Source: Prochloron sp. SulCav_FS08_3_32_3330 (GTDB taxonomy: Bacteria > Cyanobacteriota > Cyanobacteriia > Cyanobacteriales > DYNF01). Taken from it: a stretch of DNA of 33,301 bases. Positions within the stretch are counted from its first letter, which is position 1, and the number at the start of each line of letters is the position of its first letter. The notes below the pieces were generated by a model. The model was not told where the DNA came from and did no database searches. It was given only the letters and a program-made list of their open reading frames with translations. A program made the position numbers and the translations under genes. This document shows positions 20,019-24,172 of this stretch, one piece after another. The stretch covers positions 1 through 33,301 of the forward strand of contig DYNF01000045.1 in NCBI GenBank assembly GCA_020721205.1. The letters run 5' to 3'.

Positions 20019-21062
20019 ATGAACAATAATACAGAAAACTGGTCAAATTTATTACAACAATTATTAGATAAAGAATCTTTATCTATTCCTCAAGCAAAGG
20101 AATTAATGGAAGGATGGTTAAATAATCAAATTCCTGACGTTTTATCCGGGGCAATTCTAATCGCAATTCAAGCTAAAGGTGTATCGGGAAATGAGTTAAC
20201 TGGTATGGCTAAAGTGCTACAAAATCAAGCTATTCATCAAGATATTATTAACTATAATTATCCGGTGATTGATACCTGTGGCACGGGAGGAGATGGGGCT
20301 TCTACTTTTAATATTTCTACTGCCGTAGCATTTGTTACTGCCGCCGCCGGAGTTAAAGTGGCAAAACATGGGAATAGATCCGCTTCTAGTAAGGTGGGAT
20401 CTGCCGATGTTTTAGAAGTATTAGGTATTAATTTATCTGCTCCTTTAGACATAGTTAAAAAGGCATTAGATGAGGTGGGAATTACCTTTTTATTTGCTCC
20501 CGGATGGCATCCAGCGATGAAAAATGTTGTGCCTTTAAGACGGACTTTAAAAGTGAGAACGGTTTTTAATTTATTAGGTCCTTTAGTTAATCCTTTATGT
20601 CCTACAGGTCAACTAATTGGGGTTTATAGCCCTCAATTTTTAACAAGTATGGGGGAAGCTTTACAGAATTTAGGGATTAAAAAAGCAATGGTTTTATCGG
20701 GTAGAGAAAAAGTAGATGAAGCTTGTTTAGGCGATTTAACAGATATTGCTTTTGTTGAGGGTACAAATTTAAAAGTTAGCACAATTAATCCTCAAGATTT
20801 TAATTTAACTAAAGCTACCTTAACCGATTTAAAAGGAGGAGAACTTGAGGAAAATAAAGAGATTTTAACTAAAGTTTTACAAGGAAAAGGTAGCCCCGCT
20901 CAAACTGATGTAATCGCTTTAAATGTTAGTTTAGCTTTACAAGTTGGGGAGGTGATAAAATGGGAAGATCATCAAGCAGGAATTGATCTTGCTAAAGACA
21001 TTTTAAAAAGTGGTAAAGCTTGGGATAAATTACAAGAATTAGTTAATTTTCTTAAGGTTTAA
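20019..21062 (+). CDS. trpD: Anthranilate phosphoribosyltransferase
   Basis: TrpD joins anthranilate to PRPP, the second step of tryptophan synthesis. The 347 residues have an N-terminal helical domain (LTGMAKVLQ), the PRPP loop [14 protein letters not shown] (85-98), [18 protein letters not shown] (116-133) and the metal-binding DE pair in [12 protein letters not shown]. Length is normal. It stands alone, without other trp genes, as usual in cyanobacteria. The 260-base upstream region (19759-20018) is very AT-rich and I see no other gene in it. A diverged inverted repeat and a copy of the AAAAGTCGGGG element follow the stop. Confidence 0.98.
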
Positions 21063-21063
21063 T

Positions 21064-21130
21064 TTGTAGGGTGGGCAATTTTCTTTTAATTATTATAATC
21101 AATAAAATTTATTCATTGCCTACCTTACAA
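21064..21130. repeat. Imperfect inverted repeat after trpD (TTGTAGGGTGGGCAAT)
   Basis: TTGTAGGGTGGGCAAT (21064-21079) and ATTGCCTACCTTACAA (21115-21130) pair with two G-T type mismatches around a 35-base loop. It begins 1 base after the trpD stop and probably works as, or has replaced, its terminator. Confidence 0.7.
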
Positions 21131-21133
21131 CGG

Positions 21134-21197
21134 AAAAGTCGGGGATTTTAAATAAGTTAATTTTGAGAAGATAAATTAAAGAAAATCCCCGACTTTT
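21134..21197. repeat. Dispersed inverted repeat, 16-bp arms, copy 2
   Basis: The arms AAAAGTCGGGGATTTT (21134-21149) and AAAATCCCCGACTTTT (21182-21197) are identical to those at 444-508. The 32-base loop, when reversed, resembles the loop of copy 1. Confidence 0.88.
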
Positions 21198-21307
21198 GAA
21201 TTATTTTTCTTGACAAAATTAAATTCTTATGTTAGAAACAAAATAGAGTATTAAATATCTTTAACTTGATATTTGTCTCATTTATATAAACTTCAAATCT
21301 GATATTT

Positions 21308-21374
21308 TTGTAAATCTTTGCTCTTGATTTAGTTTTTAGTACATTATTACTAAATCAAAAGATAAGATTTACAA
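21308..21374 (+). promoter_or_regulatory. Long stem-loop in the rnc upstream region
   Basis: TTGTAAATCTT (21308-21318) pairs with AAGATTTACAA (21364-21374), and TTGATTTAGT (21324-21333) pairs with ACTAAATCAA (21349-21358), with a 5x5 internal loop and a 15-base tip. This makes at least 21 paired bases. A second hairpin follows (ATCGCTAA 21435-21442 with TTAGCGAT 21455-21462). Both lie in the 470-base gap between trpD and rnc, 70-225 bases before the rnc ATG. Whether they are transcribed with rnc is not known. Confidence 0.55.
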
Positions 21375-21532
21375 CTAGATTAGGCTTAAAGATTGTATGT
21401 TTGAGACTTGTAATCAATGTTAAAAAGTAGTTTGATCGCTAATTTAGTTTAAATTTAGCGATATTATTTCTTATTATTTTTGATATTGAAATGCTCCTAA
21501 ATATCCTTGTTTTTTAAATGTAACTTAAAAAA

Positions 21533-22217: not shown

Positions 22218-22429
22218 TTAAAAAAAAGTTCGTTGTTGGGCTTTAGCACGATTAAAATAGTGCTAAAGCACAACAACAAACCTAAGCCGGATAAATTCTT
22301 AAACGACAGTTAGGTTCTTCCCCTTAAAAAAAAGTTCGTTGTTGGGCTTTAGCACGATTAAAATAGTGCTGAAGCACAACAACAAACCTAAGCCGGATAA
22401 ATTCTTAAACGACAGTTAGGTTCTTCCCC
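22218..22429. repeat. 106-bp tandem duplication carrying the ycf45 3' end and its hairpin
   Basis: Copy 1 (22218-22323) and copy 2 (22324-22429) differ at one base (GCTAAAGC versus GCTGAAGC). Each contains eight A residues, a GTTCGTTGTTGGGCTTTAGC hairpin (22228-22281 and 22334-22387), and the bases encoding the last 13 codons and stop of the minus-strand gene. Only copy 2 is joined to the gene; copy 1 carries an orphan tail. Confidence 0.95.
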
Positions 22430-24172
22430 AAAACTATCACATTGTAAACGATAATGCTCAATTAACTCATGTTGCATTTTGCGCACTTTTTCTGAGCGTG
22501 GAAGTAACTCAACAGGTTGCCCCGTCGGTATTACTACCTGTTCCACTGCTAAACGAGCTTCCTCTAAAGCCTCTATTTCGTCATTGTTACGATTACGAGT
22601 AAATAACCCGATTTCTTTTGGCTCTAGGATCGGGGGATCATCTATTTTTAATAATCGTCTTAAAGCTCTTGTTATTTGCGGAATACTATTCGATTTAATT
22701 CCATAAACAGGAATTTGATTAACTTTCGCTATTTGACGCAATTTTGCATCTTTTTTAATCTGCGATCGCAGGGCAATCAGAGCGTCAGCACTTTTTAATT
22801 CATGGGTTAAAACCACAGGAAAATTTAAAATCTCAATTACCTCCTGTAACTGAGGGCGACTTACTCCATAAGGATATATTTTCAGGGGTAATTCATCGTC
22901 ATTTTTCCATTTAAAATCATTTTTCATTAAATCTTGAGTGTGCCAAGATTGGGCAAGTAATCGCTCAAAATCCTGTTGTTTAACTGTTTTTGAAGATTGA
23001 GTCGAAATTGGAGCTAGAGGTATCATATTACCCGTTGTAGACCAACCTCCTGTATAAATTGGAGTAGGGATAATAGGAGTATCATCTTTAAAACTCTGAA
23101 TAACGGATAAAGGATTTTCTTGGGTAATTTTCACCACCCCTTCATCGCTCACAGTGCGCACCTGTAAAGAGGGCTGATGATGACGTAAAAGCAGATCCAC
23201 CGTTTGAGCAACATTTTCATGAATTACCCATTTTTGACGCTCTAACATTTCCACCGCTATGCCAAAAGTAGGGGGTGCTTTGCGCTCTAATACCGTCTTT
23301 TGTGAGCCTCGACGACGTGCTTCTTCATCCCCTAATGTGACGGCTTGAATACCGCCGATTAAGTCGGCAAGGGTAGGATTTTTAATTAAATTTTCTATTT
23401 GATTACCGTGGGCAGTACCCACAAGCTGAACTCCTCTCTCTGCAATAGTTCTAGCCGCTTGTGCCTCTAATTCTGTGCCAATTTCATCAATGACGATCAC
23501 CTCCGGCGTATGATTTTCCACAGCCTCGATCATTACATGATGTTGTAACTCAGGACGGGCTACCTGCATACGTCTCGCCCGTCCGATCGCAGGGTGAGGA
23601 ATATCGCCATCTCCAGCGATTTCGTTAGAAGTATCAATAATCACCACTCGTTTTTTGAGATCATCAGCCAAAACCCTTGCAATCTCCCGCAGTGCGGTAG
23701 TTTTACCTACTCCGGGACGACCTAATAAGAGAATAGATTGACCAGTTTCGACTAAATCCTGAATCATCGTAATTGTACCAAAAACTGCGCGTCCAATCCG
23801 ACAAGTTAAGCCGATAATCTCCCCGCTACGGTTACGAATAGCACTAATACGGTGTAAAGTGCGCTCAATTCCTCCTCGATTATCACCGCTAAATGTGCCT
23901 ACTTTCTCCACACATTGATCAATTTCCTCTTTTGTTACGGGAATTTCGCTCAAATAGGCTACTTCATCAGGAAAACGAGCTTCGGGAAGCCTACCTAAAT
24001 CCAAAATTACCTCAATTAATTGGTCTTTTTTGGGATGATTTTCAATAGATTCTTTAATTTTTACAGGTAAAATTGCTAAAAGTTTATTGAGATCGTCAGT
24101 AATTTGTCTACGGTGGGCAGGTATTTTTTCAAGCATAGAGGGTGCTGTGATGATTTTTTTATTTTTATTCAT
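22388..24172 (-). CDS. ycf45: Ycf45-like P-loop ATPase with C-terminal R3H domain
   Basis: Ycf45 is a conserved cyanobacterial and algal-plastid protein related to the SpoIIIAA-type AAA ATPases; its role is unsettled. The 594 residues have an N-terminal helical region (1-125), a P-loop domain with Walker A GRPGVGKTT (151-159), TSNEIAGDGDIPHPAIGRAR (181-200), Walker B VIVIDE (225-230) and an arginine-rich GDEEARRRGS. A variable linker (about 345-470) leads to a C-terminal R3H nucleic-acid-binding domain (SEKVRKMQHELIEHYRL, ending PNCRLRIYPA). Single-stranded nucleic acid binding is therefore likely. Its last 13 codons and terminator hairpin are duplicated in tandem downstream. It is convergent with rnc. 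Confidence 0.93.
   Translation of the reverse strand: MNKNKKIITAPSMLEKIPAHRRQITDDLNKLLAILPVKIKESIENHPKKDQLIEVILDLGRLPEARFPDEVAYLSEIPVTKEEIDQCVEKVGTFSGDNRGGIERTLHRISAIRNRSGEIIGLTCRIGRAVFGTITMIQDLVETGQSILLLGRPGVGKTTALREIARVLADDLKKRVVIIDTSNEIAGDGDIPHPAIGRARRMQVARPELQHHVMIEAVENHTPEVIVIDEIGTELEAQAARTIAERGVQLVGTAHGNQIENLIKNPTLADLIGGIQAVTLGDEEARRRGSQKTVLERKAPPTFGIAVEMLERQKWVIHENVAQTVDLLLRHHQPSLQVRTVSDEGVVKITQENPLSVIQSFKDDTPIIPTPIYTGGWSTTGNMIPLAPISTQSSKTVKQQDFERLLAQSWHTQDLMKNDFKWKNDDELPLKIYPYGVSRPQLQEVIEILNFPVVLTHELKSADALIALRSQIKKDAKLRQIAKVNQIPVYGIKSNSIPQITRALRRLLKIDDPPILEPKEIGLFTRNRNNDEIEALEEARLAVEQVVIPTGQPVELLPRSEKVRKMQHELIEHYRLQCDSFGEEPNCRLRIYPA

Follow-up and report, generated by a model that had tools for sequence, protein, structure and literature searches.

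A long conserved hairpin lies upstream of rnc

We found that a long double-stranded structure lies upstream of rnc, the gene for RNase III, in the window, by which we mean the whole stretch of 33,301 nucleotides of a Prochloron sp. genome that was analyzed, and that this structure is conserved at rnc loci of relatives. We consider it probable, as judged by comparison of sequences, that the hairpin belongs to the leader of the rnc transcript and is cut by RNase III in a negative feedback on rnc. The observation of a long stem-loop before rnc, made in an initial annotation of the DNA, is confirmed. As shown in Table 1, the hairpin occupies part of the gap between rnc and its upstream neighbor trpD (20019–21062, same strand). 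This gap holds three palindromes and measures 470 bases, not the 335 initially given for the leader region, which would begin just past the second palindrome. Palindromes 1 and 2, on the trpD side (~21064–21131 and ~21134–21197), both lie upstream of the predicted promoter, and the core word of the second occurs nine times, on both strands, in a 400-kb sample of the window's genome plus the window; the third palindrome is the conserved leader hairpin. The genome encodes further RNase III genes besides the rnc of the window. On the 3' side of rnc, at ~22218–22436, we note a tandem repeat of two copies (period, 106 bp; 108 of 113 positions identical), which extends into the 3' end of an ORF on the opposite strand.

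Table 1. Coordinates of the features at the rnc locus of the window
Feature	Position	Strand	Basis
Predicted -35 box, TTGACA, 65 nt 5' of GTCTCA	21210–21215	+	65 loci aligned on the box
Weak predicted -10 box, TAGAAA, 17-nt spacer	21233–21238	+	Inference from the box alignment
Entire conserved leader hairpin	21262–21420	+	Arms, fold, match of model R2 (53.7 bits, E 1e-10)
Lower helix, 5' strand, TTGAT (partner 21413–21417)	21266–21270	+	
Conserved base helix, 5' side, GTCTCA	21275–21280	+	Comparison of relatives
Inner stem, 23 pairs, variable arm region	21308–21374	+	Fold
Conserved base helix, 3' side, TGAGAC	21402–21407	+	Comparison of relatives
Lower helix, 3' strand, ATCAA	21413–21417	+	
8-bp hairpin, ATCGCTAA/TTAGCGAT	21435–21462	+	Sequence, fold
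GATATT...AATATC, directly 5' of rnc	21482–21505	+	Weak; likeness to GATATTCCGATGCT of relatives
rnc, RNase III, 225 aa	21533–22210	+	NCBIfam TIGR02191, 216.4 bits (cut-off 166.25)

The hairpin is a single imperfect stem with 59-nt arms (21275–21333 and 21349–21407) that are 75% complementary. The fold of 21265–21420 has 54 pairs and a minimum free energy of -46.4 kcal/mol, compared with a mean of -22.6 kcal/mol for shuffled sequences (z -7.4; 0 of 200 shuffles equaled the real fold), and the reverse strand folds almost equally well, as with any palindrome. The stem of at least 21 pairs over 67 bases that had been noted initially is present as the inner stem of Table 1, and the second, 8-bp hairpin exists as well, with seven of its eight pairs kept in the minimum-energy fold. 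The outer sequences near 21267 and 21404, which had been taken to pair partly and to enlarge the structure, do pair, but they proved to be the base of one continuous hairpin, and the element begins ~45 bases earlier than the 21308–21462 originally assigned to it. This outer part, GTCTCA/TGAGAC with TTGAT/ATCAA below, is the best-conserved piece of the hairpin.

Because the window's genome is rich in palindromes, with 14 inverted repeats in the 400-kb sample that equal or exceed the top score of the window (101), stem length alone does not make the rnc hairpin special. Ten of these 14 contain one recurring repeat unit. Palindromic repeats are very numerous in this genome (L155–L174), several being built from common units and often nested. 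What makes the rnc hairpin remarkable is its homology, position, and single copy, not its length: at the search sensitivity used, it is single copy in its own genome, and the many dispersed copies required of a palindromic repeat or MITE were not found. A scan for a G+C-rich stem followed by a T run gave no site at the hairpin, which speaks against an intrinsic terminator. At the gathering threshold, Rfam gave no match in the window and none at the hairpin in the loci of 12 relatives; at the permissive threshold, all matches fell far under the gathering scores and were mostly to microRNA families. The only matches above the gathering threshold elsewhere in the 12 loci were two c-di-AMP riboswitches downstream of rnc (L037, 5534–5795; L067, 4009–4224).

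The base of the hairpin recurs at rnc loci of relatives

The first set of loci comprised 77 rnc loci (four not cyanobacterial) and 30 more that included the window's own copy; the window's own family is not represented among the 60 relatives searched first, and one genome of the window's order (G034) has the locus that is also found in Anabaena sp. 4-3 (L067, L090). A first survey revealed hairpins of 60–92 pairs ~400–700 nt 5' of rnc in Scytonema, Leptolyngbya-like, and Nostoc genomes, many of them followed by a small HNH ORF ahead of rnc. The compared groups share a base in which GTCTCA (5') faces TGAGAC (3'), with an internal loop and lower helix outside; the arms above it differ almost entirely from group to group. 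The exact pair GTCTCA...TGAGAC, with its halves 80–340 nt apart and no more than 1500 nt upstream of rnc, was found at 62 of 115 distinct rnc loci and in 1 of 150 background stretches from those loci, and 300 control hexamers gave a mean of 2.0 loci and a maximum of 15. A further seven loci have a paired variant together with a promoter box, so that 69 of 115 were scored as carriers by rules that were fixed after inspection and that required the box for the seven variants. The variants of the base stay paired (GTCGCA/TGCGAC, GTCTAA/TTAGAC, GTCTTA/TAAGAC, and, in L153, ATCTCA/TGAGAT). The hairpin is not indispensable, because 46 of the 115 loci did not qualify as carriers, although one of these, L153, was nevertheless matched by the covariance model described below.

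An inverted-repeat score of at least 100 was reached at 63 of 131 rnc loci (duplicates included) compared with 0 of 152 background stretches; this inverted-repeat scan took the place of a fold-based count, whose 300-nt windows overlooked some long hairpins. Two loci counted as having rnc-adjacent hairpins by loose fold counts (L069 and L073) failed the inverted-repeat and motif tests. At the extremes, L096 forms 122 pairs in a stem that has no branches and leaves just 15 bases unpaired (z -20), and L128 forms 124 pairs with 40 bases left unpaired (z -17.6).

Because the motif was picked after the 115-locus set had been viewed, a later set of 69 rnc loci (29 from a class search and 40 chosen across the identity range, with some genomes overlapping the earlier set) provides the fairer test. 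Where RNase III is at least 61% identical to that of the window, the exact pair is present at 20 of 43 loci, the paired GTCTTA or GTCTAA variant at ten (one of them without the box and one with a weak repeat score), and neither at 13 (one of them with just 328 nt of upstream sequence). Below 58% identity, the exact pair is present at 0 of 26 loci; five of the 26 have a loose paired word, none with the box, and five have repeat scores above 80. Six low-identity loci with an HNH gene (L107, L122, L127, L129, L133, and L137) do carry the hairpin, and identity is therefore no strict limit, nor is the hairpin a marker of one clade. On a protein tree of 114 rows, from which L080 was left out as short, hairpin carriage needs 25 changes, compared with 35.7 when the labels are shuffled (0 of 500 shuffles as low). 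We conclude that the hairpin, as placed on this tree, is clustered and appears to have been often lost or partly moved.

As a further control, we considered other RNase III paralogues. The exact motif was found upstream of none of them in 20 regions, two of which come from the window's own genome; loose paired words (GTCNNA and its complement) occur at 3 of 20 paralogue loci, one of them with a TTGAC box.

Pairing is kept by compensatory changes

A covariance model, R2, was built from ten relatives with the window left out, and it found the hairpin of the window with the score given in Table 1. The antisense strand of the window also scores 25 bits, and the best other match in the 400-kb sample of the same genome scores 28.5 bits (E 6e-4), from which it follows that part of the R2 score reflects mere hairpin shape. 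When whole genomes were searched with stricter filters, the window was the sole match in its own genome at E ≤ 0.01, and among 291 genomes of the order nine were matched, at one place each (both strands of one place being counted once). A DNA search with a Nostoc hairpin matched 8 of the 291 genomes, also at one place each after pieces and strands had been joined. At all 17 places from the two genome searches, rnc lies downstream on the same strand.

In the window's group (11 sequences), 94.5% of the 51 pairs are formed, and two-sided changes occur in 22 of the 51, compared with 8.3 in shuffled alignments (0 of 500 shuffles as high). In a second group (23 sequences), 97.3% of 57 pairs are formed, with two-sided changes in 15 of 57 compared with 4.1 (0 of 500 as high). 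These shuffle counts are not probabilities, as related sequences are not independent. Controls in which the alignment was slid, so that relatedness was kept, were lower throughout (3–8 and 2–7 pairs with double changes in the two groups), and the predicted structures have an advantage over them from having been derived from the same alignments. The initial annotation had made its reading depend on conservation of the pairing in relatives, and the pairing is kept, with compensatory changes in both groups.

A predicted promoter lies directly 5' of the hairpin

Alignment of the loci on a TTGACA box pointed to the putative promoter elements of Table 1, and transcription likely starts near 21245. 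The box is found upstream of GTCTCA or its variant at 65 of 69 carriers, at -57 to -98, within a search window limited to -45 to -110. It stands at -65/-66 in the window and ten relatives, at -80/-81 in 25 loci, at -57 in five loci of one genus, and elsewhere in 24 loci. We note that the list returned by a generic promoter scan of the window does not contain the box at 21210–21215.

The genes between hairpin and rnc are exchangeable

In relatives, either an HNH ORF or an NYN ORF lies between the hairpin and rnc; the window and L153 have neither. The HNH ORF is small (~76–85 aa, mostly ~76–78; e.g. L067 2661–2897 and L074 2614–2844), and NCBIfam matches it best to the HNH parts of IscB and Cas9d, at scores well under the cut-off. 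It is decayed in several loci, by a broken frame in L009, a Cys to Ser change in L018, an interruption in L010, and a stop in L077. In several relatives, GATATTCCGATGCT sits ~40–50 nt 5' of this ORF. In other relatives, the ORF encodes a protein of ~260 aa with an NYN domain, and the hairpin is then ~1050–1300 nt 5' of rnc. The gene labels are regular-expression guesses; Pfam was run on only three proteins of each kind, and it confirmed the NYN domain in 3 of 3 NYN proteins. Close Nostoc relatives have the hairpin in common and differ in the intervening gene (HNH in L016 and NYN in L040; HNH in L055 and NYN in L026). Because relatives thus swap HNH, NYN, or no gene at all, we regard the hairpin and rnc as the constant pair and the intervening gene as exchangeable. 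Both the HNH and the NYN proteins give weak matches to defense models; the RNase III encoded by rnc matched no model of the defense library. In one locus (L104, G011), the greater part of the NYN gene and the beginning of rnc are missing, apparently through a deletion, and the hairpin is retained.

A search for HNH homologues among the 291 genomes of the order gave 30 loci, in 23 of which rnc lies beside HNH; the window's own genome gave no match at E ≤ 1e-12. HNH homologues away from rnc have background hairpins only (25–29 pairs in six of six measured, with repeat scores of 42–63), in a survey in which HNH was not located in L133, L136, L141, and L145 and L138 was read incorrectly. The hairpin therefore travels with rnc and not with HNH. 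Folds of 60–61 pairs that overlap the HNH ORF in L139 and L142 came from loci not oriented to the strand of the gene and were rejected; the inverted-repeat scores there are only 53 and 42. L131 and L135 adjoin rnc without a clear long hairpin of the rnc-leader type. In L135 (G043; reverse-complemented locus, from 1501), the HNH ORF continues in frame into the dsRNA-binding part of an RNase III that lacks the catalytic part. A second group of HNH homologues, with an MSPAS start (L139, L140, L142, L143, and L144), is found apart from rnc; its members are followed by two similar ORFs and lack a long upstream hairpin.

The IscB/HEARO system, in which a structured RNA (omega RNA) lies near an HNH ORF, bears some likeness to these loci, in that the small HNH ORF aligns with the HNH portion of the IscB model (38–45 bits; cut-off 175). 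It differs in that the ORF here, at ~76–85 aa, has no RuvC part and in that the hairpin persists without HNH and follows rnc. Identity with IscB/HEARO would require a protein with both RuvC and HNH, and was rejected since the relatives have HNH-only ORFs and the window's own genome has no HNH match at E ≤ 1e-12.

Discussion

The simplest reading of the hairpin is that of a substrate of RNase III, because it is a long double-stranded stem, at the predicted 5' end of the RNase III mRNA, that is kept more by pairing than by sequence. The suggestion in the initial annotation of an RNase III autoregulation site holds as far as the conserved pairing and the tie of the element to rnc loci are concerned; the mechanism we infer. 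A promoter at ~21210–21238 would start an RNA just 5' of the hairpin, which would then be the 5' leader of the rnc transcript. The RNA would fold into a long double-stranded stem on the GUCUCA/UGAGAC base, flanked by the internal loop and lower helix, and excess RNase III would cut this stem. The cut mRNA, having lost its protecting 5' structure, would decay, and the level of the enzyme would be held down. A base kept largely by sequence and arms kept mainly by pairing are what would be expected of a dsRNA substrate, and HNH or NYN ORFs between the hairpin and rnc would fall under the same control. As the window's genome has other RNase III genes, the cutter may be another RNase III.

We weighed several other readings. 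The hairpin could be a separate gene for a dsRNA-like small RNA, processed by RNase III or a paralogue and acting in trans, perhaps as a partner of the HNH or NYN protein, such that the linkage to rnc would denote a shared system and not feedback in cis. The promoter box directly 5' of the hairpin, the length of the unbranched stems in two relatives (122 and 124 pairs), and the nuclease-family ORFs that adjoin it in many relatives would suit such a gene; however, no terminator-like site lies 3' of the hairpin in the window, the window and L153 keep the hairpin with no gene in between, and the arms share little sequence among groups, unlike those of a trans-acting guide, and we consider this reading unlikely. 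It is quite unlikely that the hairpin affects the stability or translation of the mRNA without RNase III, e.g. by shielding the 5' end from RNase E or J, which would agree with the stable fold and the predicted position at the 5' end but would leave unexplained both the link to an RNase III gene and the upkeep of such a long dsRNA. Chance placement before rnc of a MITE-like palindromic repeat might be suspected in a genome so rich in palindromes, with two more of them just upstream. The hairpin is single copy there at the sensitivity used, however, and it precedes rnc in many genera with compensatory changes and at a promoter distance typical of each group, which makes this extremely improbable.

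The nuclease genes suggest yet another reading, in which RNase III, by cutting the leader, would keep the HNH or NYN cargo low, and cargo and RNase III would rise together as a defense once foreign dsRNA overwhelms RNase III or the enzyme is inhibited. That the cargo varies among close Nostoc relatives under a constant hairpin (L016 and L040), and that HNH and NYN are both nuclease families that weakly match defense models, is consistent with such a guard. The window, however, has no cargo, several loci have decayed HNH copies, and the defense library gives no match to RNase III itself, and we regard a guard of this kind as very unlikely. A bolder version, to which we give only a slim chance, is that the hairpins constitute a new family of giant dsRNA leaders that controls a swappable nuclease slot in cyanobacteria, with the hairpin as a sensor of RNase III activity: RNase III would dice the leader and so silence its own operon, and HNH or NYN would be freed when the enzyme is overloaded or blocked.

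Cutting of the leader by RNase III in negative feedback, the reading that we prefer, has parallels in other bacteria. One is the leader of E. coli rnc (rncO). The structure in that leader is far shorter than the cyanobacterial hairpin, which is a single hairpin of 54 pairs in the window and of ~40 to 124 in relatives. The original reports on rncO are said to be those of Bardwell (1989) and Matsunaga (1996). Passages on the E. coli enzyme describe how it cleaves a structure within the 5' UTR of its own mRNA, which is thereby destabilized (PMC8708148, PMC5371410). The likeness is that an RNase III gene has a structured leader region, predicted in the cyanobacteria to be a 5' UTR, with negative feedback being proposed here; in contrast to rncO, the cyanobacterial leader has a conserved GUCUCA/UGAGAC base and optional intervening genes. 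The two are thus alike in logic and unrelated in sequence, and cleavage of the cyanobacterial leader is put forward on comparative grounds. In S. aureus, according to PMC3386247, RNase III lowers its own mRNA by way of a structured region in the rnc coding sequence, whereas the cyanobacterial candidate site is in the leader. The same paper cites absB of Streptomyces coelicolor, an RNase III that cuts its own operon transcript, which is likewise regulation of the enzyme's own transcript in a phylum different from that of the window. A review of RNA decay in cyanobacteria (PMC10989914) states, in its passages on RNase III, that there are several RNase III genes per genome, and these passages make no mention of rnc feedback; those parts of the literature that our search covered contain no description or test of this cyanobacterial rnc leader. 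A mutant of Nostoc PCC 7120 that is deficient in one RNase III (alr0280) has been described (PMC11288750).

If the feedback reading is correct, cyanobacteria too use a leader hairpin for RNase III feedback, but in another form, in which the base is conserved in sequence and the arms are free to evolve as long as pairing holds. The leader would then separate one kind of RNase III gene from leaderless paralogues, it would offer a simple route to testing the role of the linked HNH and NYN genes, and its natural variants, with ~40 to 124 pairs, would serve as a series of candidate substrates for RNase III. We note, as a separate observation, that the 122-pair palindrome of L096 (200–580, 5' of an NYN-rnc locus) is DNA of a kind expected to be unstable, and its upkeep is curious.
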